IMG/VR virus record: IMGVR_UViG_3300037189_007830
Location: 1 to 46,023 of that record
Length of the DNA: 46,023 bases
Strand: one strand, 5' to 3'
Source: a virus
In this document: positions 1 through 44,209 of the stretch, piece by piece
Position numbering within the stretch: the stretch's first letter is position 1
How the letters are laid out: the number at the start of each line of letters is the position of its first letter
The notes under the pieces: model-generated
What the model was told of the DNA's origin: nothing
What the model saw: only the letters and a program-made list of their open reading frames with translations
The model's database searches: none
Translations under genes and position numbers: made by a program

Positions 1-1539
1 ATCTTTGTAAACTATGGATCGTCTACTAAAAGAAATACTAACACGCAGACTGGTGGCTTTGGTATCGGTGCGAAGTCTGCCTTCTCTTATACCGATAGCT
101 TCACAGTAGTGAGTTATTATAACGGAACGAAGTACACTTACTTATGTTACATGACAAAAGAAAAAGGCGGATGTGACTTGCTCTCAACTGAACCAACGAG
201 CGAAGCGAATGGCGTAGAGATTTCTGTTCCAGTGAAGAGACAATCTATAGATGAGTTTAAGAAAGGGGTTGAACGCTGCGTAATGTTTTGGCAAGAAGAT
301 ATTGTGTTTGAAGGTGTGACGCATGGTGAAATAAAACAATATAAACCTGTGGCTTCATTAGGAGTTATGTCTATCTACGAAACTAATAGAGATAGTCAGA
401 CAATTTATTTGATTGACGGGATACAATATGAAATGATTAATGAGGAGAATTACTGGGCAAGATTTAACGCTGCCGCATCAGATACTACAGTTGTTATTAA
501 TGTTCCTAACGGATTCTTTAAACTTTCTCCGTCAAGGGAAAACATTCAGGATACTATTGAGAACAAAGAAAAGCATGAGGCTATGAAACAAAAATGCAAA
601 CAATTAATTCAGCAAAAGAAGAATGAGATTCTTGATATAGCAGATATCAAAGATAAACTTGCTCACAAAAATGTATACTCAGGTTTATATGAGATTAAGA
701 ATATTGAACTAAAGATTTCTGATAATCACTATTTAAAGTCTGGTACTTTGAGACTGATTAAAGGAAATTTTGATACACGTTTTCCTAGAAAGAAAAGACG
801 TAGCATGACCTTTGTTGTCGAACAAGGTATCTCCAGTGGAGTTTATTTAAACGAAGTGGTGCTGATTAAAACAGATAAGGAAACAAATGCAGGAACTTTA
901 GCTAGACGATTGAATCATTATGTGTTGAGTGAAAAAGTAACAGTGTTAATTTCTAAAGAAGATCTTCCCTTTGAAAAAGAATTGTTTACTAAGATTATTC
1001 AATCAGAAAGTTTACCTTTGCCGCCACTAGTTAAAGGTGTTAAAGTAAAGAAAGCGACAAGCGATAGTGTGGCTTTTTCGAGAAGCTCTTATGGTAGACA
1101 TCAGTGTAAGATGCGAGATGTAAACGATGATACTAGAGAAGCAATCTTGTGGGAAGAAAGTATGGATGTTCGTCTATTTAATTTCTACGAGGTTTATGAA
1201 ATTCCTAAGTGCAACATGAAAGATTTAACTAAAAAACTTTTGACAACAAAAGAAGCGCAAGCTAAACTACTAGCGAGAAAGCACGAAGCTTTAGGATTAT
1301 CTTTTAAGTTATACTCGTCAATTAAAAAGCTATCGCACTTAAACAAAGTTCCTAACAGAGATTTAAGAGATTACTTGTTGAACACTGATAAGTCTTTCAA
1401 AGCAGAACATGAAGCGATTGTTAAGTTAGAAGAAAGTTTAAGAGCTAAGTGTCCGTTGATGAAAGCATTGCTATATGTAACAACAACAGAAGCTGCTAAT
1501 ATTATTATCGAAGAAATTAACAAACAATTAGGAGAATAA
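1..1539 (+). CDS. rIIA: rIIA-like GHKL ATPase (5' end cut by window)
   Basis: The reading frame is open from the first base, so the N terminus is outside the window. The visible part starts with FVNYGSSTKR and then TGGFGIGAKSAFSYTDSF, which matches the glycine-rich ATP-lid motif of GHKL ATPases as found in T4 rIIA and its relatives. The rest is lysine-rich with no transmembrane segment. In T4, rIIA and rIIB are membrane-associated early proteins that protect infection against other phages' exclusion systems. Here the stop codon lies one base before the rIIB start, with GGAG just upstream, so the two genes are probably translationally coupled. An internal GTG at 109 would remove the ATPase motif and is not the true start. 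Identification rests on the motif and the rIIB neighbour. Confidence 0.85.
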   Translation: MFVNYGSSTKRNTNTQTGGFGIGAKSAFSYTDSFTVVSYYNGTKYTYLCYMTKEKGGCDLLSTEPTSEANGVEISVPVKRQSIDEFKKGVERCVMFWQEDIVFEGVTHGEIKQYKPVASLGVMSIYETNRDSQTIYLIDGIQYEMINEENYWARFNAAASDTTVVINVPNGFFKLSPSRENIQDTIENKEKHEAMKQKCKQLIQQKKNEILDIADIKDKLAHKNVYSGLYEIKNIELKISDNHYLKSGTLRLIKGNFDTRFPRKKRRSMTFVVEQGISSGVYLNEVVLIKTDKETNAGTLARRLNHYVLSEKVTVLISKEDLPFEKELFTKIIQSESLPLPPLVKGVKVKKATSDSVAFSRSSYGRHQCKMRDVNDDTREAILWEESMDVRLFNFYEVYEIPKCNMKDLTKKLLTTKEAQAKLLARKHEALGLSFKLYSSIKKLSHLNKVPNRDLRDYLLNTDKSFKAEHEAIVKLEESLRAKCPLMKALLYVTTTEAANIIIEEINKQLGE

Positions 1540-1540
1540 A

Positions 1541-2359
1541 ATGAACTACATGATTTTATCTGACAGTTTAATTCTTAACTTTAATGGCAACACTACTGTA
1601 ATTAATCGTGCCGATGGTAGGTATGACAAGATTATTCCTCTACTAAGAGAAGGTAAGTATGAAGACATCATTCCATTACTTGATGTTGCAAAGGATTTAA
1701 AAGACAGAGGCTTTGATGTTCGCCATGGATTAGTTTACTTAGATGACGAGGCTTTACCTAACTCATTGTCTACAAGAGTGTTAGAATTTTACGACAACAA
1801 TTTACCTTTTCAACCTTTGCTAAAGTTTTGGAGAAAGCTACGAAACAATCCTAGCTTTAACAGTAGACAGATGTTGTTCAAGTTCTTAGAACATAACGGA
1901 CACCCGATTACAACGGAAGGAAACTTCATAGCTTATCGTGCAGTAAGAGAAGATTATAAAGACAAACACACAGGAACAATGGACAATAGCATTGGTGCTG
2001 TGGTAGAATTACCACGCAGTCAAGTGGACGACAATCCAAACAACACTTGTTCATTTGGATTACATGTTGCCACAATGAGTTATGCTAAGGACTTTGGTAG
2101 TAAGGTAGTAGACGTTGAAGTTGATCCTGCTGATGTAGTGGCAGTACCTACAGATTATAATGGAACTAAGATGCGAGTATGTAAATTCAAAGTTGTAGCA
2201 GATACTCAAGGTATTATTACTAAACCATTAGTAACATCGGCTTACTCGGATGTTTGGGATGAGGCTTTTGAAGACGATGAAGATCTTTGTAAGACTTGTG
2301 GTGAAACAGTTGATAAGAATACTCAATATTATTGTCCAACATGCGGGGAGATTCTATGA
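1541..2359 (+). CDS. rIIB: rIIB-like protein with C-terminal zinc ribbon
   Basis: This 272-residue protein shows the layout of T4 rIIB-type proteins: an N-terminal half with FWRKLRNNPS, then TEGNFIAYRAVRED and a CSFGLHVATMSYA segment that is characteristic of the family. The C terminus adds a compact zinc ribbon with CxxC pairs at C250/C253 and C265/C268. It directly follows the rIIA-like gene, as in T4-like and many other phages, and the pair is expected to act together in infection or superinfection physiology. The start has a GGAG box at about 7 bases. The terminal TGA overlaps the ATG of the next small gene. The biochemical role is unknown even in T4. Confidence 0.85.
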   Translation: MNYMILSDSLILNFNGNTTVINRADGRYDKIIPLLREGKYEDIIPLLDVAKDLKDRGFDVRHGLVYLDDEALPNSLSTRVLEFYDNNLPFQPLLKFWRKLRNNPSFNSRQMLFKFLEHNGHPITTEGNFIAYRAVREDYKDKHTGTMDNSIGAVVELPRSQVDDNPNNTCSFGLHVATMSYAKDFGSKVVDVEVDPADVVAVPTDYNGTKMRVCKFKVVADTQGIITKPLVTSAYSDVWDEAFEDDEDLCKTCGETVDKNTQYYCPTCGEIL

Positions 2360-2514
2360 ATACAAAAATAAAATTGAATGAAGTGATAGGAAAATTGCAA
2401 GCTAACTTAGACGAAGTAGAGACAGTTCACCTTGACGACGATGAGCAAGAAGGGGTTACGTTTCTACAAACATTGATAAATGAATTAAAAGAAATTGAAG
2501 GAGAACTAACATGA
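2356..2514 (+). CDS. small acidic hypothetical protein
   Basis: Encodes 52 residues, acidic and predicted helical, with a run of Asp/Glu in the middle (HLDDDEQEG). I do not recognise it. The ATG at 2356 is chosen because it has GGGGAG 6 bases upstream and overlaps the rIIB stop as ATGA; an upstream TTG in the same frame lacks such a site. The end overlaps the next ATG in the same way, so it is part of a coupled train of small early genes. Confidence 0.6.
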   Translation: MNTKIKLNEVIGKLQANLDEVETVHLDDDEQEGVTFLQTLINELKEIEGELT

Positions 2515-2690
2515 TTAAATTTGTAACGATTAGAAATAGTACAAAAGAAGTAAATGTATTTGATAGCTTTACTAAAGCATTAGAGCATACACAAAAGCTA
2601 GTGTTCGGAGATAGGTATTTCATCTATGAAAACAATACGTTACTAGCAACGGCACTAATTAAAAAAGAAGAGGAGTTTAATTATGAGTAA
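2511..2690 (+). CDS. small hypothetical protein
   Basis: A 59-residue reading frame beginning MIKFVTIRNS and ending EEEFNYE. The ATG overlaps the upstream stop (ATGA) and has AAGGAG at the expected distance. It fills the gap between two coupled genes exactly and overlaps the next ATG by 8 bases, which supports it as real despite its length. The sequence looks like a short alpha/beta protein with no known motif; function unknown. Confidence 0.6.
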   Translation: MIKFVTIRNSTKEVNVFDSFTKALEHTQKLVFGDRYFIYENNTLLATALIKKEEEFNYE

Positions 2691-2949
2691 TAAGAATCCA
2701 ATATCAAATATCCCATTGCCAGATGTTAAGTTTGAAAAACCTAGATATGTTGCTATAATATGTTATCAAATTCCTAGGAAGATTAAACTTGGGGGAAGAA
2801 GAAAGGTTAGTCCTAGATTTGAAACAATGTATGGAGCGTTGTATTGGTTGAACAAGCAGGACTATAACATGGACTATATGATCGTTAGAACTGATCAAGA
2901 AAATGCAATTAGAAGTGGATATAAGAAAGTAGGTGAGGTTGTTAGATGA
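2683..2949 (+). CDS. hypothetical protein
   Basis: Encodes 88 residues, basic (many Lys/Arg), with a central beta-rich part (RYVAIICYQI) followed by a Tyr/Trp-rich segment. No membrane helix, cysteine cluster or catalytic motif is visible. An AGGAG box precedes the start and the stop overlaps the ATG of the PhaR-like gene. The basic character would allow nucleic-acid binding, but nothing proves it. Confidence 0.6.
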   Translation: MSNKNPISNIPLPDVKFEKPRYVAIICYQIPRKIKLGGRRKVSPRFETMYGALYWLNKQDYNMDYMIVRTDQENAIRSGYKKVGEVVR

Positions 2950-3179
2950 ATATTAATATTACCTATTACAAGAATAGAAAATTATATTCTAGTCATGTAA
3001 GTAGATACGTGAATTTAATGGAGTGCAAGGAGCTAATTGATGCTGGACATAACATAAAGTTTACGCATCATTCTACAGGAGAAGACGTTACAGAACAATG
3101 CCTTAAAGAATTAGTAAGGAAGTGTGATATCAATATATCCAGTCTTATGAAATTATTAGGAGGGCAGCGTGAAAAATAA
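2946..3179 (+). CDS. PhaR N-terminal-like (PHB_acc_N) small protein
   Basis: This 77-residue protein resembles almost end to end the N-terminal DNA-binding domain of PhaR, the polyhydroxyalkanoate synthesis repressor. It has YYKNRKLYSSHVSRYVNL (compare the family's KYxNRRLYDTxxSxYIxL), then LIDAGHNI, then STGEDVTEQCL (compare TGEDIT). In PhaR this domain binds DNA while the C-terminal part binds the polymer or phasin promoters; here only the domain remains. It sits in the early small-gene train, overlapping genes on both sides. It may be a phage transcription factor or a decoy of a host regulator; that is inference. Assignment is from remembered family consensus, not a search. Confidence 0.65.
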   Translation: MNINITYYKNRKLYSSHVSRYVNLMECKELIDAGHNIKFTHHSTGEDVTEQCLKELVRKCDINISSLMKLLGGQREK

Positions 3180-4328: not shown

Positions 4329-4640
4329 ATGGTTGAAAAAGAATTTGTCCTTAAGAATCCGTATGGTTATGAAGATGAAATGACAACAAATGAGTTGTGG
4401 CAATGGTTTCTATACAATCAACCTGATGAATGGGCATGGTTTGATTTCCTAGATAAGATTCGTATTGATGGTGAACTGGCATTAACTAATGGTGTTCTTG
4501 TAAGACATTTGTTTTCTAAAAAAGATACGTCGAATTTAAAAGTTTGTAGACACGAAAAAAAATATATTAATGTAGTATCTAACACGCTTAAATTCTGGGT
4601 ATGCCCTGAGTGTGGTAAAGATTTAGGTGATGCAAAATGA
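4329..4640 (+). CDS. hypothetical protein with C-terminal zinc-ribbon-like motif
   Basis: A 103-residue protein rich in Trp in its N-terminal half (TNELWQWFLYNQPDEWAWFD). It ends with CRHEKK, a 10-15 residue hydrophobic strand, then CPECGK, giving a C-x-H plus C-x2-C arrangement typical of small phage zinc-binding proteins. The stop overlaps the ATG of the RecB-like nuclease, so it may be co-translated with the recombination genes. The start is weakly supported: upstream AGG only. Confidence 0.6.
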   Translation: MVEKEFVLKNPYGYEDEMTTNELWQWFLYNQPDEWAWFDFLDKIRIDGELALTNGVLVRHLFSKKDTSNLKVCRHEKKYINVVSNTLKFWVCPECGKDLGDAK

Positions 4641-5479
4641 CACGAATGAGTTTCTCTGCAAGGGAGAAGTACGAACAATGCCCATACAAATACTATCTGC
4701 ATTATGTTGAAGGGTACAGATCGTCATTACAAAGTTCTGCTTTGTGCTTTGGCAATGCTCTTGATATAGCATTGAACGACATGCTTACTGGTAGTTTGAA
4801 CTATCATGAAGTATTTAATTCCGAATGGGAAAAATACAGAGATAGCAACATCGAATACTATAAGTCTGACTTGGATGTTAGTCTCTTATCTGCACAGGAG
4901 ACTAACCTTCCCTTAGCACAACAGAACTTTATCTCTTTGAAAAAGAAAGGCATCAAACTTTTAGACGCTTACTTTACTCATATCTTTCCTAAGATTGAAA
5001 AGGTTATTTCTATTCAAGAAGAAATAAACATTGTAGGTTACGACGAAAACGGAGAGCCTACTGATGATAGCATCTATGGTAAGATAGATTTAATTGCCAG
5101 TATAAAAGATGATACAGGAAAACTACACTACGCTTTGCTCGATAATAAAACAACTAGTGAAGCTTATTCAAAGAACGCAGTTCAAACGAAAGATCAACTA
5201 GCCTTATACGCTTGCGGCTATTCGGACATTACTTCTTTTGGCTATCTAACTTTGAATAAAAAGAATTACAAAACACAAATAATAATTGATACGATTAGTG
5301 AAGATAGAAGATCAGAGGTTCTGAATAAATTTGTTGTGACTCTAGATAAAATAAAAGATAATCAGTTCGAGAAAAATAAAAAGTCATGCTATGCTTTTGG
5401 TAGAAAATGTGAGTACTATACTTATTGCCATAGCGGATACTTTAATTCTGACATATACCAAAAAGAAAAGGAGGGATGA
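4637..5479 (+). CDS. RecB/Cas4-like PD-(D/E)XK exonuclease
   Basis: This 280-residue protein begins SFSAREKYEQCPYKYYLHY, the N-terminal helix of PDDEXK_1/RecB-type nucleases. The core follows: IYGKIDLIA (D151), LLDNKTT (D169-x-K171 in place of the usual D/E-x-K) and a QLALYACGY helix containing the family's conserved Gln and Tyr. C15 together with C251, C258 and C264 near the C terminus could hold an iron-sulfur cluster as in AddB and Cas4. Located directly upstream of the ERF annealing protein, it probably resects DNA ends to give single strands for annealing, an exonuclease-annealase pair analogous to lambda Exo-Beta. The pairing is inferred from context. Confidence 0.85.
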   Translation: MTRMSFSAREKYEQCPYKYYLHYVEGYRSSLQSSALCFGNALDIALNDMLTGSLNYHEVFNSEWEKYRDSNIEYYKSDLDVSLLSAQETNLPLAQQNFISLKKKGIKLLDAYFTHIFPKIEKVISIQEEINIVGYDENGEPTDDSIYGKIDLIASIKDDTGKLHYALLDNKTTSEAYSKNAVQTKDQLALYACGYSDITSFGYLTLNKKNYKTQIIIDTISEDRRSEVLNKFVVTLDKIKDNQFEKNKKSCYAFGRKCEYYTYCHSGYFNSDIYQKEKEG

Positions 5480-5877
5480 TGTCAATTTACGTAATGACAG
5501 TTGGGGAACTAGCTAAGAAAAGGGGAGAGCCTGTCGGGGACTTTGTAAAGAAAGTACAGTCTGTAGGGTTTGATGCTGGATCTCATGCTAAGAAACTAAC
5601 ACAAGATGATTTAAACTCTTTGATTAAATTACTGGATGGAACTTCTGAACAAGAAGATGCTGCTCCAGCTAAGAAAGAAAAGAGAGTAGCTTTGAATCCT
5701 AATGTTGTGATGGTTAAACTTAATGGAAGAGATACTTTAGTAGCTCATGTAGATGCTAGTCTAAATACAGATGGATCAATCTCTGTTGAAATTCTAGAAT
5801 CGTCTATTGAAAATTCTCTTGGAGAAACTTTGTTAGAATTTAGAAAACAACTTGGACTAAAAATGGGGGTAATTTAA
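5479..5877 (+). CDS. IF2_N-like domain protein of the recombination cluster
   Basis: Encodes 132 residues. The N-terminal part, with VGELAKKRGEPVGDFVKKVQ followed by SVGFDAGSHAKKLTQDD, strongly resembles the small IF2_N helical domain found at the N terminus of bacterial translation initiation factor 2, including the SHA-x-x-L turn. A Lys/Ala linker leads to a C-terminal beta-rich part (VVMVKLNGRDTLVAHVD). The second of two adjacent ATGs is chosen because GGAGG lies 4 bases upstream; the first is only 1 base away from it. It sits between the RecB-like nuclease and ERF. IF2_N folds may simply bind nucleic acid here. No GTPase domain is present. Confidence 0.6.
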   Translation: MSIYVMTVGELAKKRGEPVGDFVKKVQSVGFDAGSHAKKLTQDDLNSLIKLLDGTSEQEDAAPAKKEKRVALNPNVVMVKLNGRDTLVAHVDASLNTDGSISVEILESSIENSLGETLLEFRKQLGLKMGVI

Positions 5878-5960
5878 TGGCTAAGAAAAGAAAAGGATGC
5901 GGATCTGGAAGTACTAAACCAAAAGGAAAACGCAGGGAGGTAGAATGTCAGCACCATTAA
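5877..5960 (+). CDS. 27-residue basic peptide (possible)
   Basis: A short frame MAKKRKGCGS... very rich in Lys/Arg and Gly, whose ATG overlaps the upstream stop (TAATG) and which ends 13 bases inside the ERF gene. A GGGGG run precedes it. The basic composition would suit nucleic-acid binding. It may equally be leader sequence that carries the ERF ribosome binding site. Confidence 0.35.
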   Translation: MAKKRKGCGSGSTKPKGKRREVECQHH

Positions 5961-6577
5961 TTTACAAGAAGATGTCCGAAGTAATGAAGGATGTTGGAGC
6001 AGTTGGCAAAGATCAAAAGAATACTCAGCAGGGATTTAAGTTCAGAGGTATTGATCAATTCGTTAACGCACTCTATCCAGCACTTACAAAACATGCTGTG
6101 TTCATGTCTCCTCGATGCGTAATGGAAACTCATGAGTTAAAAGAAGTCGTAAGATCTTCTGGTAAGTCGGGCACAGATAAGCACGTTACTATTTATATGG
6201 AGTATGATTTCTTTGCGGAAGATGGTTCTAAAGTTACTATCGGACCTATTCCTGCAGAGGGTTTAGACTCTGGAGATAAAGCTACAAACAAAGCTTTATC
6301 TGCTGCATTAAAATATGCGTTGATACAAACCTTCTCAATCCCAACAGAGGATATGGCAGAGGCTGATTTAGAGTCTCCTGAGATTGGGATTAAATCGGCT
6401 GCAAGTTTTATTGCCGCTACCAATTTAGCGGCTGCAACTACTACTCAAGAAGCAGCAAAGACAGTAGAGAAAAAGAAAACGGTTTCGTTTAATAAACCAA
6501 AGACAGATTCAACTAAACCCACTACAAAGCTAGGAGTCAATGTTGCTGGCGATGTAAGTACTGAAATTGATCTGTAA
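5945..6577 (+). CDS. erf: ERF-family single-strand annealing protein
   Basis: A 210-residue protein with the ERF superfamily signature: GFKFRGIDQFVNALYPAL near the N terminus, a central strand-rich part ending IPAEGLDSGDKATNKALSAA, and ALKYALIQTFSIPTED. ERF proteins such as P22 Erf form rings, anneal complementary single strands and circularise or recombine phage genomes. The last 50 or so residues are a low-complexity Thr/Lys/Pro-rich tail, possibly for protein contacts. AGGGAGG precedes the ATG. It lies two genes after a RecB-like nuclease, with which it probably works. Confidence 0.9.
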   Translation: MSAPLIYKKMSEVMKDVGAVGKDQKNTQQGFKFRGIDQFVNALYPALTKHAVFMSPRCVMETHELKEVVRSSGKSGTDKHVTIYMEYDFFAEDGSKVTIGPIPAEGLDSGDKATNKALSAALKYALIQTFSIPTEDMAEADLESPEIGIKSAASFIAATNLAAATTTQEAAKTVEKKKTVSFNKPKTDSTKPTTKLGVNVAGDVSTEIDL

Positions 6578-6592
6578 TAAAAGGAGGACAGC

Positions 6593-6892
6593 GTGAGTGA
6601 AAAACCAAAAGTGATACGAAGAGATTTCGGAGAATTTCTAGAAGCTCCAAGGAAAGATCCAGATGACCCAAAGGAAAAGCCTAGATACTACATCAAGGTA
6701 ACAGCAAAGCCAGAAGTACTGGACGCTGTAAGACAAGGTACAATTATTGAACTTGAAGCACCTGATGAAAAGTACAAAAGAATGATTGCATCTGGTAAGC
6801 TTTCGGAAGATCAAGTAAGTGATGCTCAAAAAAGTATGGATAGGATTCCTAAGTTTTTTGTTAAAAGATTAGTTGCTAAAATTAAAGAGTAA
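6593..6892 (+). CDS. hypothetical protein between ERF and primase-helicase
   Basis: Encodes 99 residues from a GTG start with AAGGAGG 5 bases upstream. The protein is highly charged, with a DPDDPKEKPRYYIKVTAK segment followed by a helix-rich, Lys-rich C-terminal half. No recognised motif. Its position between the annealing protein and the primase-helicase suggests a small DNA-replication or single-strand-binding accessory role, but there is no direct evidence for an OB fold. Confidence 0.6.
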   Translation: MSEKPKVIRRDFGEFLEAPRKDPDDPKEKPRYYIKVTAKPEVLDAVRQGTIIELEAPDEKYKRMIASGKLSEDQVSDAQKSMDRIPKFFVKRLVAKIKE

Positions 6893-11249: not shown

Positions 11250-11783
11250 ATGACTATAACTAATGAGTACATAAAAACATTTAATCCGTGCAAAAATAGG
11301 ATGGACAACTTTGACAAACTGTACCCAAACTACAATGCTAAATTATCTGATTTATTATCTCTTGATGACATACCCTACAGTGATAAAGCATGGCTTGCAA
11401 TTAGAGTTGCACCCTTAAAAACTCTACAGCAATGGTCGGTAGAGTGTGCAGAGTATGCTCTTGAAAATTTTGAAAAAAAATTTCCCAATGACAATAAAGT
11501 TAGAGATTGCATTGAAGTGACTAAAAAAGTTATTAATGGAGAACTTGAAGAGTCGGCAGTGTCGGCAGCACAGTCGGCAGCAGAGTCGGCAGTGTCGGCA
11601 GCACAGTTGGCAGCAGAGTCGACAGCAGAGTCGACAGCATGGTGGGCAGCAGAGTCGGCAGCATGGTGGGCAGCAGAGTCGACAGTGTCGGCAGCACGGT
11701 CGGCAGCAGAGTCGGCAGAAAAAGAACAACAAGATATTAATTTAAGCATATTGATAGCACTGTTAAAAAACGAGGAATTATAA
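11250..11783 (+). CDS. Ala-rich repeat protein
   Basis: Encodes 177 residues. Residues 1-100 form an ordinary, probably helical domain (with AWLAIRVAPLKTLQQWSVEC). Residues 101-156 are low-complexity ESAVSAAQSAA-type repeats, followed by a short KEQQDINLSI tail. The repeats contain 11-residue units and shorter ESTA or WWAA variants, consistent with a long amphipathic helix. AGGAGG lies 5 bases before the ATG. Similar Ala/Ser/Trp repeat proteins occur as hypotheticals in other phages from memory, but no function is established. The repeat number is probably unstable because the DNA repeats are near-identical. Confidence 0.7.
   Translation: MTITNEYIKTFNPCKNRMDNFDKLYPNYNAKLSDLLSLDDIPYSDKAWLAIRVAPLKTLQQWSVECAEYALENFEKKFPNDNKVRDCIEVTKKVINGELEESAVSAAQSAAESAVSAAQLAAESTAESTAWWAAESAAWWAAESTVSAARSAAESAEKEQQDINLSILIALLKNEEL
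11550..11718 (+). repeat. TCGGCAGCA-type tandem repeat inside a coding region
   Basis: About 169 bases of imperfect tandem repeats built from 12-base blocks (tcg gca gca cag, with gag, tgg or cgg as the last codon) in blocks of 33, 12 and 24 bases. It is far more GC-rich than its surroundings. Because the motif lacks stop codons in several frames, it creates spurious reading frames on both strands. Slippage expansion is the likely origin. Confidence 0.85.
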
Positions 11784-14099: not shown

Positions 14100-14456
14100 A
14101 TGAGATACAATGAAGTCATTACAATAAATATAAAAGGTCGTAATTGGCATTTTGTATTATTAACTGATAGAGTATTTGATAAAAGGTTTCCTTGCGAAGA
14201 AGAGAATGAAGAGACTCAAGCTATTACACTTCCCGATGAGAATAGCATTTACTTAAAGAAGAGTAGATTTACTTTACCAACAATTCGTCATGAGATATTC
14301 CATATCCTAGTGTTCTCTAGCTTAATAGAGTCAAGCTCTTTGACTAAGGATCAGATGGAGGAATTGGGAGCAGAGATAACTGCAGAACATTCTCCTGAGA
14401 TAGTTCTGTGGGCAGAGCAGGTTATGAACTTTTATACGCAAAAAGGAGTTGTATGA
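14100..14456 (+). CDS. ImmA/IrrE-like HEXXH metallopeptidase
   Basis: Encodes 118 residues with RHEIFHIL: H64, E65 and H68 form a zinc-protease HEXXH motif in a predicted helix, followed by LGAEITAEHSPEIV, where an acidic residue could be the third ligand. The small size and context (phage, soluble, no signal peptide) resemble ImmA/IrrE-type peptidases, which cleave repressors, but no HTH is attached. It could instead be a distant, inactive or different-substrate relative. The stop overlaps the start of the dNMP kinase gene, suggesting co-expression. Confidence 0.6.
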   Translation: MRYNEVITINIKGRNWHFVLLTDRVFDKRFPCEEENEETQAITLPDENSIYLKKSRFTLPTIRHEIFHILVFSSLIESSSLTKDQMEELGAEITAEHSPEIVLWAEQVMNFYTQKGVV

Positions 14457-15467: not shown

Positions 15468-15836
15468 ATGGGCAGAAGCCGAAGAAAAGATAACGATACC
15501 GAAGAGAATGAAAAAACATTAAAGGAATTAAAAGCTGCAAATAGAAGATTAAAAAGTGATAACGAAAGGCTGAAGCAAGAACTAGCTACTCTACGTTCAG
15601 TCTTTGACAAGACCTCTAAGTATTTAAAAGATAATACCGATAACTTTTCAGTGGAATCTTTAATACGAGGTGCTAAGAATGAGGCAACATTAGAACAAAT
15701 TAAAATTACTAATAGTTGTTATGTTTGCAAATCTACAAAACTAAAAGAACTCAATGTTCCTTTTGGAAAAATTATGCTTTGCACAGACTGTAATCACAGT
15801 AAGGTAGTTAGAGATGGAAAAGAAGAAAAAGAATAA
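15468..15836 (+). CDS. coiled-coil protein with C-terminal zinc ribbon
   Basis: Encodes 122 residues. Residues about 12-60 form a clear heptad coiled coil (TLKELKAANRRLKSDNERLK). Residues about 84-110 form a zinc ribbon with CYVCKS and CTDCNH (two CxxC pairs). This architecture suggests a dimeric nucleic-acid-binding or regulatory protein. GAGAGGG precedes the ATG by 5 bases. Its 3' end overlaps the HNH gene by 23 bases, suggesting linked translation. No specific family recognised. Confidence 0.6.
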   Translation: MGRSRRKDNDTEENEKTLKELKAANRRLKSDNERLKQELATLRSVFDKTSKYLKDNTDNFSVESLIRGAKNEATLEQIKITNSCYVCKSTKLKELNVPFGKIMLCTDCNHSKVVRDGKEEKE

Positions 15837-16206
15837 TAAGCCAATCATGTCAATAGAAGACCCTAGATTTAGATCTTTCTTGATGTCTATCTTACGTAGG
15901 GCTAGTAGATTTTGGAAGCCTTCGGAAATATGTATTGAGAAGACTAGAGTTAGTAGAGGTGTTCATATTTGTCCTTCTTGTAAGAAAACTTGTCGGAGAA
16001 AAGATATGAAGAAAGATCACATAAACCCCGTAATACCGGTAACAGGCTTTGGAAGTTGGGATGAGGTTATCAAGAGGTTGTTTGTTACGGAAGATAAGTG
16101 GCAAGCTATTTGTCACGAATGTCATGCTGAAAAGACTAAACAAGAAAATGCCTTGAGAAAGATTGGGAAAAAAGAAAAACCTGTGTTAAAATTAGATGAG
16201 GATTAA
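15814..16206 (+). CDS. HNH-type endonuclease
   Basis: Encodes 130 residues with HNH features: CPSCKK (C53/C56), KDHINPVIPV (D68-H69, the catalytic HNH first motif) and ICHECHAEKTKQEN (C100/C103 with H104 and the final Asn/His position). The paired CxxC set stabilises the fold. Such free-standing HNH proteins may be homing endonucleases or packaging-associated nucleases; here it lies far from terminase, in the early block, so a homing or DNA-processing role is more likely. The N terminus is Lys-rich. ATG overlaps the previous gene. Confidence 0.8.
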   Translation: MEKKKKNNKPIMSIEDPRFRSFLMSILRRASRFWKPSEICIEKTRVSRGVHICPSCKKTCRRKDMKKDHINPVIPVTGFGSWDEVIKRLFVTEDKWQAICHECHAEKTKQENALRKIGKKEKPVLKLDED

Positions 16207-16220
16207 ACCGAAGGATTTTA

Positions 16221-16745
16221 GTGATTAATTTTTTTTATAAATTCGTAGAAGTGTGCATAAAAGGTTTTATGCTTTTTATCATATTCACTTTATTTTTATT
16301 TACGTTTAGCAAGGTTTTAAATGTACCAATTTATGTAGAGCCAGAACTAAGAACAACCTTTGTTCAATTCATGGAAGATGCTGATAGGTACAAGGTAGAG
16401 CCTGATGTATTTAGATTGATTACGGTTTTCAAGGACGAACTGTCATTTGGTACAGCAGCTTACTGTATACCAAGAACTAATACTGTAGTTGTTTCAAAGC
16501 CAATATTTGACAGCTTAAGCCCTGAAGGCAGAAAAGCTTTGCTATACCACGAATGGGGACACTGTACTTTAAAAAGAGATCACGTTGAAGCTGTGGTTAA
16601 TCTATCTTTCGCAACTTGCCCTGTTAGTATAATGCACCCTTATATTGATCCAGTAGAATACTGTTATAAGAACCTAGAAGATTTATACATAGAAGAACTA
16701 TTTGTAAATCCCTACAACTTCAAAAAAATATCCGAGGAGGATTAA
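16221..16745 (+). CDS. membrane-anchored metzincin-like zinc protease
   Basis: A 174-residue protein starting with a GTG. Residues about 14-32 form one hydrophobic helix (CIKGFMLFIIFTLFLFTF) after a positively charged start, implying an N-in topology with the rest outside. YHEWGHCTLKRDH provides H110, E111, H114 and either D120 or H121 as third zinc ligand. Downstream, SIMHPY around M138 resembles the Met-turn of metzincins such as astacin. Four ectodomain cysteines (C82, C115, C133, C148) could form disulfides in the periplasm. It ends overlapping the start of the ClpP-like gene (TAATG), so the two proteases are probably co-expressed. No substrate can be named. Confidence 0.7.
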   Translation: MINFFYKFVEVCIKGFMLFIIFTLFLFTFSKVLNVPIYVEPELRTTFVQFMEDADRYKVEPDVFRLITVFKDELSFGTAAYCIPRTNTVVVSKPIFDSLSPEGRKALLYHEWGHCTLKRDHVEAVVNLSFATCPVSIMHPYIDPVEYCYKNLEDLYIEELFVNPYNFKKISEED

Positions 16746-17488
16746 TGAAAGTGCTCATCTTACTGATGTTGAGTTTCTCTGTTTACGCAAAAGAGATTGT
16801 CTTAACTAAAACTAACTGCGTAAGTTTAACTGGACCTGTTACAGCTAATTCTGTTTCAGAAACTATGGTTGCTCTTCAAAAGATTGCAGGAGAAGGTGAA
16901 GCTTCAGAACCAATTTACTTAGTTTTAAATACTCCCGGAGGTAGCGTTATGGATGGATTAGATTTAATTCAATACATGAATACCTTAAGAAGACCAGTTC
17001 ATGTTGTTGCTAATTTTGCAGCTAGTATGGGGTTTCATATCCTACAACATAGTCCTGTCAGATTAGTTACCGAGTTCTCTACTATTATGTCACACCGAGC
17101 AAACGGTTCTTTTAGAGGAGACATTCCACAGCAAGTTAATTCTAGAATCAGTCATATTACTCAGTTGGTAAATAAGATGGACGAGTATGTTATCAGTAGA
17201 ACTAATGGTAAATTTAGTAAAGATACATATACTGAATTAGTTAGAGATGAGTATTGGGCTGTTGGAGATAATGCAATTAAGGACGGATTTGCCGATGAAG
17301 TGGTTAGTTTAAAATGCGACAATACATTAAACGGTTGGGTAGATAAAGAAATTAACATGTTTATCTTCAGTGTTTTAGCTAAAGTTTCTGAGTGTCCTTT
17401 AATTACTGAACCTGTATTTTCTGGGGAAGAAGGAAAGTCTGAACAAGTTTTAAAATACTTCAAAGAAATTAGACCACTGGGGCTATAG
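16745..17488 (+). CDS. secreted ClpP-fold serine protease
   Basis: A 247-residue protein with a cleavable signal peptide: MKVLILLMLSFSVYA, with cleavage expected after A15. The mature part has a ClpP/SppA-like fold: LNTPGGSVMDG forms the oxyanion region, NFAASMGFHI contains nucleophile S94, STIMSHRANG contains H117, and VRDEYWAVGDNAIKDGFADE supplies D168 and the end of the fold. All three candidate catalytic residues are present. ClpP-type proteins in phages are usually cytoplasmic head-maturation proteases in the packaging operon; this one lies in an envelope cassette, on the opposite strand from structural genes, and appears to be periplasmic. GGAGG precedes the ATG. Confidence 0.8.
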   Translation: MKVLILLMLSFSVYAKEIVLTKTNCVSLTGPVTANSVSETMVALQKIAGEGEASEPIYLVLNTPGGSVMDGLDLIQYMNTLRRPVHVVANFAASMGFHILQHSPVRLVTEFSTIMSHRANGSFRGDIPQQVNSRISHITQLVNKMDEYVISRTNGKFSKDTYTELVRDEYWAVGDNAIKDGFADEVVSLKCDNTLNGWVDKEINMFIFSVLAKVSECPLITEPVFSGEEGKSEQVLKYFKEIRPLGL

Positions 17489-17740
17489 ATGGAATATGTA
17501 ATTGGAATAATTACTGTATTGGTTGGAGGGGTTTTATACCTCTTCAACCAAAATCAAAAATTAAAATCTAACGATAAGATATCTGAAACCAAAATAGAAG
17601 ATGCTAAACTTGAAACAAAGCAGGATGTTATTGCTGAAAAGATTTCAGAAGTAAAATCTGATTTAAGCCAGCTAACAGAACAGCCTGTAAACGATAAACA
17701 AACTGCAGAGGATTTCTGGAGCAAGCGAGGAGATAAATGA
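17489..17740 (+). CDS. N-anchored coiled-coil membrane protein (i-spanin-like topology)
   Basis: Encodes 83 residues: a single N-terminal membrane helix (about residues 4-20, VIGIITVLVGGVLYLF) and a charged, Lys/Glu-rich coiled-coil tail of about 50 residues. This layout matches inner-membrane spanins or other periplasmic-facing anchored coils, but it is short. It directly abuts the ClpP-like gene and overlaps the next gene by 4 bases (ATGA). It could be a lysis component or a partner of the secreted proteases. Confidence 0.6.
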   Translation: MEYVIGIITVLVGGVLYLFNQNQKLKSNDKISETKIEDAKLETKQDVIAEKISEVKSDLSQLTEQPVNDKQTAEDFWSKRGDK

Positions 17741-18114
17741 AGTACCTATTGCTATTACTAATTACATTTAATGCGTTTTCTCAAGAAGTGATCACTGTTA
17801 AGAAAGGCGATGTTGTTCCTTTTGATGGTATTCTTTTTACAAAAGAAAAAGAATTACAGATACGAAAAGAAGTACTAGAGAAGGATTTTCTCGTTAAGAA
17901 GAATCTTTTACTAGAAGAACTAGGTAAACTACAACAAACTGAAATAGATATAGCTAACAAACGAGTTGACGTATATCAAAAAAGAACGCAGGAAATGGCT
18001 GATAGAGAAGTTAGGCAAGAGAATACTGACTTCTGGAAGAGTGCGTTTTACTTTACAGCAGGTGCGTTAATTGTGGGGATTATAGGTTATGGGGTCGTCA
18101 GCACTTACGAATGA
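17737..18114 (+). CDS. signal peptide - coiled coil - C-terminal membrane helix protein
   Basis: Encodes 125 residues. An N-terminal signal peptide (MKYLLLLLITFNAFS) is followed by VKKGDVVPFDGILFTKEK, then a long coiled coil (residues about 45-95) and a C-terminal membrane helix (FYFTAGALIVGIIGYGVV). The topology, with a periplasmic coil anchored at the C terminus, resembles unimolecular spanins, but no lipobox cysteine is present, so it would not be lipid-anchored to the outer membrane. A GDxxPFxGxLxT motif is remembered from uncharacterised phage membrane proteins. It may work with the upstream anchored coil in lysis or envelope defence. Confidence 0.6.
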   Translation: MKYLLLLLITFNAFSQEVITVKKGDVVPFDGILFTKEKELQIRKEVLEKDFLVKKNLLLEELGKLQQTEIDIANKRVDVYQKRTQEMADREVRQENTDFWKSAFYFTAGALIVGIIGYGVVSTYE

Positions 18115-18472
18115 TCAGCTTTTAAAAATAGCAAAACAAGAAGATGACGAAGAGTATGATAGAAGGCACGACTTAGCTTACTACGAAGAAACCTTTAGAA
18201 TCTTAAGCGGCAACAACAAAATATACACAAAGCATATATATCACCACTACAAAAAGTGGTCGGAAGATCCTGTGGATATTAAAGTGTTTCATGCTATAAT
18301 TAATATTAAGAGAAAGGGTAAAGAAACCCTGTTGCTAAATAAAAAAGAATGTTTAATTGAATTAGATAGAGTGTTAGGGGATTATGTCAAAGCAGAAAAA
18401 GCAGAGAAAAAAAAGAGACTTAGAGAAGTATCCAGCGTTAAATCCAAGGCTGAACGCAAAAACAAGAGCTGA
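18089..18472 (+). CDS. hypothetical charged helical protein
   Basis: Encodes 127 residues, overlapping the previous gene by 26 bases. It is highly charged, with EEYDRRHDLAYYEETF and a C-terminal Lys/Arg/Glu-rich helix (KAEKAEKKKRLREV). No catalytic or metal motif is seen. Its unusually long overlap with the next gene (89 bases, different frame) is worth noting; the basic 3' end of this protein is encoded by the same DNA as the basic start of its neighbour. Confidence 0.55.
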   Translation: MGSSALTNDQLLKIAKQEDDEEYDRRHDLAYYEETFRILSGNNKIYTKHIYHHYKKWSEDPVDIKVFHAIINIKRKGKETLLLNKKECLIELDRVLGDYVKAEKAEKKKRLREVSSVKSKAERKNKS

Positions 18473-18971
18473 AGTTCTTGATATGGATTACTTAAAAAAG
18501 CTTAATGAAGAAGAGTTGAAATTCTTAGATCAGTTCATGGCAGAATATGTTAGCGGTTCTTTTAAGAAAAATGCTGTAGGAACTTATAGCGATGATAACT
18601 TTCATAAGACTCCAGAAGAAAGAAGGCAATGCTATACCAGAAACAATATTAGAAATAGATGCGGTCTTACCATATCTAACGCAACGGGACAAACATATAG
18701 GTCTTCTGATATAGATGAGTTTATAGACAATCTAAACAACGCAGAAATGAATTTACATACGAGCGATTTCAATGTACTAAGTAATCTGATATATGACGAA
18801 TACTTAGGGAATAGTGATAATCTTGAAAGTGAAATACTAGAAGAAATGAGACAAGACTATGAGGCTTGCATAAACCCTACGTCTAATTCTGATAGAAAGT
18901 TAGCTGCGTCTAATTATGGTAAATATTTGATGTTAGTATTTAATAATGCCGATCTTAAGAAGAAAGGCTAG
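18384..18971 (+). CDS. hypothetical protein, last gene of + strand block
   Basis: Encodes 195 residues. The N terminus is very basic (MSKQKKQRKKRD), followed by helices and a segment FHKTPEERRQCYTRNNIRNR that may bind nucleic acid. Terminase small subunits have a broadly similar size and basic character, but no diagnostic HTH is apparent and packaging genes are not adjacent, so I leave it unassigned. The start has TAGGGG 6 bases upstream and lies deep inside the preceding gene. Its 3' end overlaps the convergent - strand gene by 39 bases. Confidence 0.6.
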   Translation: MSKQKKQRKKRDLEKYPALNPRLNAKTRAEVLDMDYLKKLNEEELKFLDQFMAEYVSGSFKKNAVGTYSDDNFHKTPEERRQCYTRNNIRNRCGLTISNATGQTYRSSDIDEFIDNLNNAEMNLHTSDFNVLSNLIYDEYLGNSDNLESEILEEMRQDYEACINPTSNSDRKLAASNYGKYLMLVFNNADLKKKG

Positions 18972-26337: not shown

Positions 26338-26742
26338 TTAGCTAATGCCTAATAGAATAAGTCTATAAGTTGTGCCACTTGGTAAGCCAGCGATATTACG
26401 TATTGCTACACTGAATCCAGTAACTTCTATAGAAAGAAATGGAGTTGCAGTTGGATAAATACCTGAATTGTTAATATCAATAACATTTACACAAATGTAC
26501 CCTTTAAAGTTTTTTAGTGCAGTAACTAAGGTTCCATTTTTTATTGGGTTACCTGAGACATCTACTTCAATATCTACGGTCTTAAATTCAAATGGAAGAT
26601 TGTCATCTACTGTAAAATTCTTATTAAATCCGATTACGAGTTTATCAATAAATGGGTTTAGAATCCCCCCAAGAGAATCTGCCAATTCTTTTTGATCATC
26701 AGGGAAATCATTAGTTTTGATCCTTACTGATTGAAGTTTCAT
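26338..26742 (-). CDS. small structural protein downstream of nozzle gene
   Basis: Encodes 134 residues, beta-rich, beginning MKLQSVRIKTNDFPDDQKEL and containing NPIKNGTLVTALKNFKGYIC. Its ATG overlaps the stop of the nozzle gene (TAATG), so it is coupled to it. Comparable small beta proteins sit beside tail genes in other podophages; assignment as virion protein is inferred from context. A 47-base gap separates it from the next gene and holds only that gene's ribosome site. Confidence 0.5.
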   Translation of the reverse strand: MKLQSVRIKTNDFPDDQKELADSLGGILNPFIDKLVIGFNKNFTVDDNLPFEFKTVDIEVDVSGNPIKNGTLVTALKNFKGYICVNVIDINNSGIYPTATPFLSIEVTGFSVAIRNIAGLPSGTTYRLILLGIS

Positions 26743-29711
26743 TACTTATTCCTATTTGGTATAGCGTACTGTTTTACTGATAAAGATAGTCCGTATAACT
26801 GGAATGAGTCTAAAGCTACCCCGTGTATAAACTTACAACCAAGAAATCTACATCTCTGTTTTCTTAGTGGAATATAAGTATCAATTTGAGCTTGATCTCC
26901 CAATCCTCCCCAAACAGTACCATCCCCCCAAGTAGCTCCTCCAAAAACTCCAGCGGAATTTGGAGAGAACAAAATCTCCTCATAACTATCACTTAAATCA
27001 CTATTATATGCAACTTGTGCTATATGGAATGACCTTCTCTCAAACATAAAAGTTCCTGTTGAAAATTGCTTTTGACTAGCAGGAGTGCCTGCATGTTGTG
27101 GAGCATATTCAACTTCTGTTTTAATTCCTTTGTAAAGAACTAAAGCCCCCACCATAAACGATGGTGGTATATTCAATGTTGCTTGTTGAGTTAATCTATT
27201 TAAGTCAGTAATGATTGCCTCATAACTAGTTGTTCCCAATGACTTTCTATAATTACTCAAATACGCAACTGGAGAAGCGTTTAGTTTGTCTACTATATTA
27301 TTAAACTGAGTTTGTATGGTTTGGAAATTTAAAGGACTTGTCCACAGCGTACTGTATGCAGGTGCTGTTGGATCTGCTATGTCCAACTTAGCAACTAAAC
27401 TATTCATTTTAAATGTTAAATTTTCACCATTAGACATCTTTAATTCATTGTAAAAATTATGAACAAGTAATCCATTGTCATTATCTAACTGTTTTAGTAA
27501 AGAGTTAAATTGATATATAGTAACGTACTGTTCCTGTAATATTACGTCTTCGATAGCAATGTTGCTAAAGCCTGTTGGTTTTATGATAATTCCATCTAAT
27601 GAACTTGGAGTTAATGTTATGTCAATTTGTCTATCGGCATAATCAAATCTATCGAAATTTTTTCTTTCAACTTCAACATAATTATCTAAGGCTGATCCAA
27701 AATATAGCTTATTATCAGGAGCGTGATTATCTTTTTCTCTTTTTAAAATACCGCAAAGTTTAGGTATCTTCCATTCTGTCCAAGTATTAGTTAAGGTGTT
27801 ATACCTGTAACATACTGTAGCAAACGTATCGGTTTTAGTTAATACAGTCCATACCAGTAATGATCTATCTGACTCATAAGGAACAGCAAATGACGCTTGT
27901 GCTAAATTAGCATTAGTTGTTATGAATGGTAGTAGCTTATTTTCGATTGGTCTAGATATTGGTTCAAGAGAAGATTCGTTTAATCTAACAATACCTTGAT
28001 TACTAAAATAGTAGCACTGGTTTGAAAGAGTTACTGCTGTATCCGGTGCTTTTATGATTGAGGTAGTATCAAATGCTCCAACATCCCAAGTAGGGTTACT
28101 TCCGGGATCTCCCGCTAATCTGAAAACTCCATCGGCTTTTAATATAAATAGAGATTCTCTTAGTGGAATAATTCGTAATATGTCTTGTTCGGTTGATCCT
28201 ATGTCGATATAATTTAGAATTGGAACCGCTTCTACTTCTTGATATTTTGAGTAATAAAGCCTATTTCCGTTAGTTTCAGCACTACTTGTAAATTTAGTGA
28301 GAATGTTTAGAGGAGTTCCTAACTCTGGAGTAAAGCTTGTGATTATAGCATTGTCTGTTGTTCCCAAGTAGAAAGCGTTATCAACTACAGTTTTTCTTTG
28401 TAGCAATATTTTTCCTTGAGTTTCACCAAAAACAGATAGATAATATGCAGAGATTATTTCATTAGGATCGCCATTAATTACGGTAACTAATGATCTAGCT
28501 GTCTCTTCTATAGCTAATTGTGGATTTGGGTTTGTAGATATCAATACCTTTTTTGTGACTATGTCTTCTGTTGTATCAAATATATACGTGTTAGCTGAGA
28601 TAATTAAGTCACTAACTCCTGCAGTAAATGTACTTAAATCTAGTATTGTGAATGTTGCAGAATGTCTAGTTCTCGTATTGGCATAAAACATATGTCCTTT
28701 AAACAGTGCTATATCTTTTGCTGCTGGAGGTGGTTCGTTTGATTTCAAAATACCTTCACCGCCATATTGGTTTGTATATAGAGGCACTCCACCAATTCTT
28801 AAACTTTCAGCTAAAGAATCTGTATAGTCTATATATCCATTCTCTAAATCGGCTGCTGTTGGAGTACCTTCGTAAACTTGATATAGTTCGTCCGATGGAG
28901 TTCCTACTGCAATCTCAGATCTATATACTCTGTATTTGTACTCAGTAACTTTGTTGTACTGTTCGTAAGCGGCTCCATCCCATCTATAAGAAGCATTATT
29001 AGTAGTATCCAAATATATTTTAGAAGGATCTCCTACTAGGGGAAATAGAGTACTATTAAGATATGCTATGGTATTTAATGTTACGTTATATGGTATTTGA
29101 AAAGATAAATCTACAGAACAGTCTGTGGCTATTGACGTATTGGTTATAGTCATAGATGCTGAAGGAGATCCAAAAATAAGATTATTGTTTCTATCAATAA
29201 CAGTCCAAAGTATTCTATATGAGCTGCTGTTATTTAGCGACAAGAACCCGGCTAGTGGGTTTAATTGCAAGATACCAGCAATTGCTTTAGGTCCACCAGA
29301 ATCTTCTACGATATTAGGCAAGGTAAAATCGCTAGGAGTTTTAGCTGATATTTTTTTGATACCTTCGGCTGTTGTGAAATATAAGTTGTTCTTAGCTTCT
29401 ACTGACTTTATTCTAGAACCAGTTTCGGTTTCGTCATAAAGTCCATAAAAATTAGTAAATGTACCAGTACCGTCATCATAAGCTAATGTATTTTGCACAT
29501 GTCTTATGAGTCTACCTTTGTACTCTAAGAGTTGTTTTACTTTATCTACAGTGGGGCTATAGGTTTTAATTCCTCGTCTTGGCTCTATTACACCATCTCT
29601 GTCAATAACAACATTGTTGGCTTTTAATAAAGCACCCGGAGAAATCTCCATTAGTGTTTGGTAATATGTTTGAAGACCGGAGGCTTTAAGATTTATTATT
29701 TGACTAGCCAC
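26742..29711 (-). CDS. tail nozzle-like protein (T7 gp12-type)
   Basis: A 989-residue protein. The start, with ISPGALLKANNVVIDRDGVI and EPRRGIKTY, is the usual opening of tail nozzle/tubular proteins. RIIPLRESLFILKADGVFRL, followed by a LSNQCYYFSNQGIVRL segment, are beta-propeller-type strands seen in these proteins. Around residues 220-250 it carries a module FPLVGDPSKIYLDTTNNASY with a YRWDGAAYEQY end that also occurs in two tail-fibre proteins here. It should form the hollow end of a short tail and be involved in DNA exit. Assigned from N-terminal pattern and gene order; homology to gp12 was not tested. Confidence 0.65.
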   Translation of the reverse strand: MASQIINLKASGLQTYYQTLMEISPGALLKANNVVIDRDGVIEPRRGIKTYSPTVDKVKQLLEYKGRLIRHVQNTLAYDDGTGTFTNFYGLYDETETGSRIKSVEAKNNLYFTTAEGIKKISAKTPSDFTLPNIVEDSGGPKAIAGILQLNPLAGFLSLNNSSSYRILWTVIDRNNNLIFGSPSASMTITNTSIATDCSVDLSFQIPYNVTLNTIAYLNSTLFPLVGDPSKIYLDTTNNASYRWDGAAYEQYNKVTEYKYRVYRSEIAVGTPSDELYQVYEGTPTAADLENGYIDYTDSLAESLRIGGVPLYTNQYGGEGILKSNEPPPAAKDIALFKGHMFYANTRTRHSATFTILDLSTFTAGVSDLIISANTYIFDTTEDIVTKKVLISTNPNPQLAIEETARSLVTVINGDPNEIISAYYLSVFGETQGKILLQRKTVVDNAFYLGTTDNAIITSFTPELGTPLNILTKFTSSAETNGNRLYYSKYQEVEAVPILNYIDIGSTEQDILRIIPLRESLFILKADGVFRLAGDPGSNPTWDVGAFDTTSIIKAPDTAVTLSNQCYYFSNQGIVRLNESSLEPISRPIENKLLPFITTNANLAQASFAVPYESDRSLLVWTVLTKTDTFATVCYRYNTLTNTWTEWKIPKLCGILKREKDNHAPDNKLYFGSALDNYVEVERKNFDRFDYADRQIDITLTPSSLDGIIIKPTGFSNIAIEDVILQEQYVTIYQFNSLLKQLDNDNGLLVHNFYNELKMSNGENLTFKMNSLVAKLDIADPTAPAYSTLWTSPLNFQTIQTQFNNIVDKLNASPVAYLSNYRKSLGTTSYEAIITDLNRLTQQATLNIPPSFMVGALVLYKGIKTEVEYAPQHAGTPASQKQFSTGTFMFERRSFHIAQVAYNSDLSDSYEEILFSPNSAGVFGGATWGDGTVWGGLGDQAQIDTYIPLRKQRCRFLGCKFIHGVALDSFQLYGLSLSVKQYAIPNRNK

Positions 29712-43948: not shown

Positions 43949-44209
43949 TTATTTTTCTATTTTCTTGGATAAAGATCTTCCAAAATACAATGAAGCACAG
44001 ATGATTAACAATTCTAAAGTGTTTTCAATATCAACACCATCTACAACTTTAGCGAACTTATTTAGTAAAGAAAGCATACACATAGTAAACGAAATTATCA
44101 ATAGCGTAAGAGATACGCTAGGTAATTTAGTTGTGGGATCTCTTAAGAATATAATAGGGAATCCTTGCTCTTGTAGTTCTTTTAGTTTAGCTTTTAATTT
44201 TTCTAACAT
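43949..44209 (-). CDS. small membrane protein, holin candidate
   Basis: Encodes 86 residues: an amphipathic Lys/Glu start, RDPTTKLPSVSLTLLIISFT, then two membrane helices (about 32-51 and 64-78, LELLIICASLYFGRSL) and a basic C terminus. Small size with two helices and charged ends suits a holin. RDPxTxKPSVSLTL-type proteins occur beside tail genes in other phages from memory, without experimental function. It is not adjacent to an endolysin here. Confidence 0.5.
   Translation of the reverse strand: MLEKLKAKLKELQEQGFPIIFLRDPTTKLPSVSLTLLIISFTMCMLSLLNKFAKVVDGVDIENTLELLIICASLYFGRSLSKKIEK

Follow-up and report, generated by a model that had tools for sequence, protein, structure and literature searches.

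The DNA analysed here, referred to as the window, is the whole of a 46,023-base virus record, whose forward strand encodes a predicted exported protein of the ClpP fold. The ATG of this open reading frame (ORF), at 16745, overlaps the stop codon of the preceding gene by one nucleotide (TAATG). The gene, its Shine-Dalgarno sequence and its neighbours are listed below with the evidence for each.

15814-16206, forward strand: HNH endonuclease, conserved upstream neighbour (PHROG, 2e-14; its cluster lies upstream in 29 of 90 loci)
16221-16745, forward strand: N-terminally anchored zinc-peptidase-like protein with HEWGHCTLKRDH, SIM and four invariant Cys (alignment of seven proteins, AlphaFold, Foldseek)
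16734-16740, forward strand: Shine-Dalgarno sequence GAGGAGG of the ClpP gene (sequence)
16745-17488, forward strand: exported ClpP-fold protein, 247 aa (Pfam, AlphaFold, VIA-align, family of 81 proteins)
17489-17740, forward strand: small protein with an N-terminal membrane segment and a coiled-coil-like part (weak PHROG match to Rz-like spanin, E 0.002)
17737-18114, forward strand: protein with a signal peptide, a PFDG motif, a helical part and a C-terminal membrane segment (alignment of seven proteins)
18384-18971, forward strand: conserved downstream neighbour (conserved in loci; no PHROG match)

The ClpP fold, which had been proposed from the sequence alone (hereafter the sequence-only reading), is confirmed far above chance. 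The Pfam family CLP_protease (PF00574) covers residues 20-188 at 2.1e-17 (64 bits against a cut-off of 20.2), ClpP chains in the PDB are matched at 7e-15 by phmmer, and the AlphaFold model, built on a 19-sequence alignment (mean pLDDT 88.9, pTM 0.82), superposes on the solved ClpP 6mx2 with a Z score of 23.3 over 168 residues at an rmsd of 2.2 (Foldseek, VIA-align). The handle helix is predicted at residues 128-151, and the active-site Ser and His are in place and invariant, which makes the protein a member of the ClpP group by fold.

Relatives and phylogeny

Successive scans of viral contigs returned close relatives that are 57-62% identical and distant ones that are 28-40% identical. The family considered below comprises 81 distinct proteins found by homology search, taken from the best 80 of 185 matching loci in the last scan together with earlier loci; every one of them comes from an uncultured viral contig, and many are only 30-40% identical to one another. 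In a tree that also took in bacterial ClpP, ClpP of isolated phages and the cytoplasmic ClpP-like genes adjoining some family members, all the exported members fall on one branch, with support of 100/99 at full length and 97/98 for the ClpP core alone. The exported family forms a single clade, distinct from bacterial ClpP and from the cytoplasmic ClpP of phages, several branches of the tree being long and the exact root of the clade unsure. An origin of the family by duplication of the cytoplasmic ClpP-like gene that some of these phages carry was rejected, since those genes group elsewhere in the tree. Comparison of the members from loci L005 and L006 (dN 0.055, dS 0.95) shows purifying selection. 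One contig, L008, carries three ClpP-fold genes (2371-3072, 4385-4957 and 5848-6817), two of them cytoplasmic and one exported, which adjoin a small co-chaperonin-like gene.

At the sensitivities used, 50,697 phage records yielded no full-length member, so that the family is invisible in cultured phages; of five family members used as queries against cultured phages, some matched cytoplasmic ClpP partially and the others had no match, and the phage collection contained no near DNA match to bases 1-25000 of the window. Narrow patterns, scanned twice against 84,980 genomes of bacteria and archaea, returned no relative, and literature searches did not turn up any account of a phage ClpP that is exported.

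Export signal and cysteine pair

The features bearing on the compartment of the protein are the following.

16745-16789, forward strand: signal peptide, residues 1-15 (MKVLILLMLSFSVYA; sequence, AlphaFold, conserved export-type N-terminus)
17315-17317, forward strand: Cys191, probable disulfide partner (81/81)
17393-17395, forward strand: Cys217, probable disulfide partner, in a C-terminal extension absent from ClpP (81/81)

The N-terminus, MKVLILLMLSFSVYA/KEIV, has a Lys and a stretch of hydrophobic residues and ends, before KEIV, in V-Y-A; AlphaFold places a helix at residues 2-10, at low confidence, and then a break. The signal peptide is short, at 15 residues. When export-type N-termini were called by hydropathy and lipobox rules, all 19 first-round relatives had one, as against 16 of the 175 other ORFs in the same loci that were at least 100 aa long and served as background. 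By the same rules, 80 of the 81 family members begin with a signal peptide, a lipobox or a membrane anchor, which classes them as exported proteins; L156, the only one that does not, begins at the edge of its contig. Shuffling of the first 41 residues alone (1359 of 10000) makes a poor null because the hydrophobic residues stay inside the shuffled stretch. The signal takes three forms across the family, i.e. a cleavable signal peptide, a lipobox (for example LISAC in L030) and a longer N-terminal membrane segment followed by a linker; the export signal has thus been retained while the sequence varies. Some relatives may be membrane-anchored instead of cleaved. The signal peptide noted earlier is accordingly a property of the family, and the relatives do not begin downstream of it, their starts with ribosome binding sites preceding the signal peptide.

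The C191/C217 pair is absent in E. coli ClpP and in cytoplasmic phage ClpP-like proteins. Its conservation would fit an oxidising compartment, and a C191-C217 disulfide is probable. An exported ClpP is the best reading of the gene because the export signal is conserved across the clade together with the Ser, the His, a Glu described below and the Cys pair, and this lends support to the earlier suggestion of a periplasmic ClpP-type phage protease.

Predicted active site

Four residues bear on the assignment of the catalytic triad.

17024-17026, forward strand: Ser94, predicted nucleophile (81/81; aligns with E. coli ClpP Ser97)
17093-17095, forward strand: His117, predicted catalytic base (81/81; aligns with ClpP His122)
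17246-17248, forward strand: Asp168, acid proposed by the sequence-only reading, poorly kept (D in 35/81, N in 40/81)
17249-17251, forward strand: Glu169, predicted triad acid (E in 79/81; ungapped on ClpP Asp171)

Invariant in all 81 proteins are P64, G65 and G66 (the oxyanion PGG), S94, H117, R152, D184, C191, C217 and P218. The sequence-only reading had chosen the Ser and the His correctly and had missed the acid by one position. In a profile-profile alignment that is gap-free in this region, E169 falls on the catalytic Asp of E. coli ClpP (Asp185 in precursor and Asp171 in mature numbering), and the Arg before it is matched by D168. One pairwise alignment had D168 on the catalytic Asp by opening a gap. 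The conservation of E169 and its gap-free position on the catalytic Asp give Ser94-His117-Glu169 as the predicted triad of the family, with Glu at the place that is held by Asp in ClpP of the S14 type. The two proteins with Asn or Gln at position 169 might be taken as a sign that the family is a catalytically dead ClpP fold, acting as a scaffold or as a receptor-blocking protein, but S94, H117 and the PGG are kept throughout a set with so much divergence among its members, and we regard a dead fold as very improbable.

Unfoldase interface

Cleavage after Ala15 would place the mature start (Lys16), by alignment, near residue 19 of mature E. coli ClpP; therefore the axial loop is missing. Also by alignment only, the residues of the hydrophobic pocket, Y62, F112, L114 and L189, are mostly replaced, many members having V for Y62, L or Y for F112 and T for L114. 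The N-terminal axial loop and the hydrophobic unfoldase pocket that mark ClpP are, on this alignment evidence, not retained in the family. As the periplasm is without ATP, an unfoldase-free protease is the simplest reading, and we infer both cleavage and independence of an unfoldase; that the family consists of exported proteases of this kind is, in our judgement, likely.

Comparison with known systems

The phage protein has in common with ClpP (MEROPS S14, PF00574) the fold, the oxyanion PGG, the positions of Ser and His and the handle helix. It differs from ClpP in being exported, in lacking the axial loop, in having Glu for Asp and an altered unfoldase pocket, and in adding a C-terminal extension with the conserved Cys pair; its score against the ClpP equivalog model TIGR00493 is 49.8 bits, below the cut-off of 308.6.

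SppA and NfeD1b (1510-N) are membrane peptidases of the ClpP superfamily whose action at the membrane needs no unfoldase, and SppA and 1510-N have a Ser-Lys dyad. The bacterial group COG3904, one of predicted periplasmic ClpP-like proteins, presumably also joins a signal peptide to a ClpP-like fold. The phage protein could accordingly be a signal-peptide peptidase of the SppA/NfeD kind, which at the inner membrane would clear away cleaved signal peptides or pieces of membrane proteins, as it belongs to the same superfamily, is exported and is predicted to be likewise unfoldase-free. NfeD1b itself has a ClpP-like N-terminal domain and is partnered with membrane SPFH proteins (PMC2636767). In locus L030 (2552-5202), a lipoprotein-form exported ClpP is followed, 54 nt downstream, by a gene for a complete FtsH-like AAA protease (M41, 5e-70); the latter belongs to a PHROG phage family (phrog_30773, 1.7e-213), and the contig also bears head genes. 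However, this FtsH linkage was seen in one locus only, the SppA (S49) model TIGR00706, which has a cut-off of 155, scores 13 bits, and the site, with His117 and Glu169 conserved across the family as in ClpP, is predicted to be of the Ser-His-acid type and not a Ser-Lys dyad. We therefore hold a peptidase of the SppA/NfeD kind to be rather unlikely. The exported family combines the S14 fold and its Ser-His with an SppA/NfeD-like setting, an acid of its own and a Cys-bearing extension.

Gene neighbourhood

The gene order in the window and in the closest relatives is HNH, zinc-peptidase-like, exported ClpP, small N-anchored coil protein and signal-peptide/C-anchor protein. In the zinc-peptidase-like protein, HExGHC, a later His, Ser-x-Met and four Cys are kept in all seven aligned sequences; its AlphaFold model has a pLDDT of 91.6, and its best Foldseek matches, at a modest E of 0.007-0.02, are the small zinc peptidases selecase and abylysin. 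Relatives of this protein occur widely in viral contigs that have no ClpP, and its gene is also linked to the exported ClpP beyond the close group, in L011 and L099. L099 (2917-6039) packs genes for three exported protease-like products into 3.2 kb, i.e. a lipoprotein of the zinc-peptidase-like type, an exported ClpP that has diverged (ASAA for ASMG) and, directly after the latter, a signal-peptide trypsin-like protease (PF13365, 2.7e-13).

A protein similar to the 17489-17740 product lies beside the exported ClpP in L059 and L016, and a signal-peptide/C-anchor protein follows the exported ClpP in L059 and in the distant phage L016. Small membrane proteins with the pattern SVSLT...YF(G/S)R, holin-like by look only and with no family match, are encoded at 43949-44209 of the window (reverse strand), L016:5749-5991 and L059:849-1082, the last two directly upstream of the exported ClpP. 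Such neighbours suggest a lysis set, in which the protease would help to break the envelope together with spanin-like partners, and both the 17489-17740 product and its L016 counterpart are indeed weakly similar to Rz spanins. Yet the spanin matches are weak (E 1e-4 to 2e-3) and coiled coils produce such matches by chance, neither an endolysin nor a certain holin was recognised adjoining the exported ClpP in the loci examined, and the other context of the gene is a head operon; a role in lysis is, in our view, quite unlikely.

Neighbours were counted over 90 loci, a few of which share one contig, and two settings predominated. In the first, an HNH gene lies upstream (29 loci), and the conserved downstream gene (31 loci) and the terminase large subunit gene (9 loci) lie downstream. 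The second is a head operon, with a cytoplasmic ClpP-like gene in 31 loci, a Cas4-like nuclease in 23 and a prohead protease in 26; the exported ClpP lies between the Cas4-like nuclease and the major capsid gene in about one locus in four. The packaging-gene and head-operon contexts do not by themselves point to an envelope role. The sequence-only reading had described phage ClpP-like proteases as cytoplasmic and normally encoded near portal and capsid, but this position does not separate the kinds, since the exported ClpP occupies it in about a quarter of the loci and the cytoplasmic ClpP of several isolated phages adjoins DNA-metabolism genes.

The head-operon position and the PHROG matches raise the possibility of a ClpP-type head maturation (prohead) protease with an incidental hydrophobic N-terminus: the best matches are head maturation proteases, and the PHROG families matched by the first 19 members are mostly of this annotation. 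The similarity to such proteases (phrog_94, phrog_133, NF045542) is distant, and they at times share an operon with the exported ClpP. Against this, the export signal and the Cys pair are conserved across a separate clade, the score against the NCBIfam model Clp_rel_HeadMat (NF045542) is 51.2 bits with a cut-off of 120, and the head-operon loci have, besides the exported ClpP, a cytoplasmic ClpP-like gene as well as a prohead protease (PHROG, 8e-48), each a gene in its own right. In the window, no gene for portal or capsid was recognised near the exported ClpP, so that the non-exported product and the place by portal or capsid that mark head maturation proteases are both missing here. By the tests made, the exported ClpP is not a head maturation protease, and we consider this reading extremely improbable.

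Other features of the record

The structural protein encoded at 26742-29711 (reverse strand) has its sole cultured-phage relative in a phage of Silvanigrella aquatica (28%, 2e-47), a bacterium of the Bdellovibrionota part of the tree, and for this reason a Gram-negative host near S. aquatica is weakly suggested. Adjacent rIIA-like (1e-22) and rIIB-like (8e-65) lysis-inhibitor genes stand at the start of the record (109-2359, forward strand). The gene at 14100-14456 (forward strand) and the one at the same position in a close relative (L001:3297-3713) encode proteins that look unrelated and that both have zinc-peptidase motifs, which read HEIFH in the window and HELAH..HWDH in close relatives. 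The C-terminal half of the product of 11250-11783 (forward strand) is made up of AAESA/AAQSA/AAWWAAESA repeat units.

Proposed role

As computed results, the fold, the rule-based export signal, the active site and the clade are solid. The explanation that we favour, as reasonably probable, is that the gene encodes a Sec-exported periplasmic ClpP-fold protease with a Ser94-His117-Glu169 site and a C191-C217 disulfide, which needs no unfoldase and forms an envelope set with its neighbours. The protein would leave the cytoplasm by the host Sec pathway and lose its signal peptide after Ala15, the Cys191-Cys217 disulfide would stabilise it, and the predicted protease would act in the periplasm. It would cut without an unfoldase, as SppA- or Deg-type envelope proteases do, because the periplasm lacks ATP and because the axial loops and part of the AAA+ docking pocket are missing. 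Its targets may be peptides, chains in a loose or unfolded state, or a small number of exposed envelope proteins, and the overlapping zinc-peptidase-like gene, the two small membrane proteins and the exported ClpP probably make up a set for reworking or cleaning the envelope of the host. An ATP-independent envelope protease active during infection is thus most likely, where we infer the cleavage and its periplasmic site along with the oligomer, the target and the benefit to the phage. Our leading guess at the purpose, a tentative one, is envelope remodelling or protection, i.e. superinfection exclusion or the removal of envelope defences.

The textbook ClpP is a cytoplasmic, ATP-dependent protease chamber. 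The exported ClpPs point to a so far undescribed phage enzyme family working in the bacterial envelope, and a large phage clade that has ClpP outside the cytoplasm, with its unfoldase parts dropped and its acid changed, would show the fold working without ATP. It would also reveal an envelope-directed proteolytic step of infection that has been masked by the annotation 'head maturation protease'. It is conceivable, though we would not presume it, that many uncultured phages run a dedicated exported system of envelope proteolysis, in which an unfoldase-free Ser-His-Glu ClpP, accompanied in some phages by an anchored zinc peptidase and a trypsin-like protease, strips or guards the envelope; if so, such a system could act, for example, against superinfection or membrane-borne defences.
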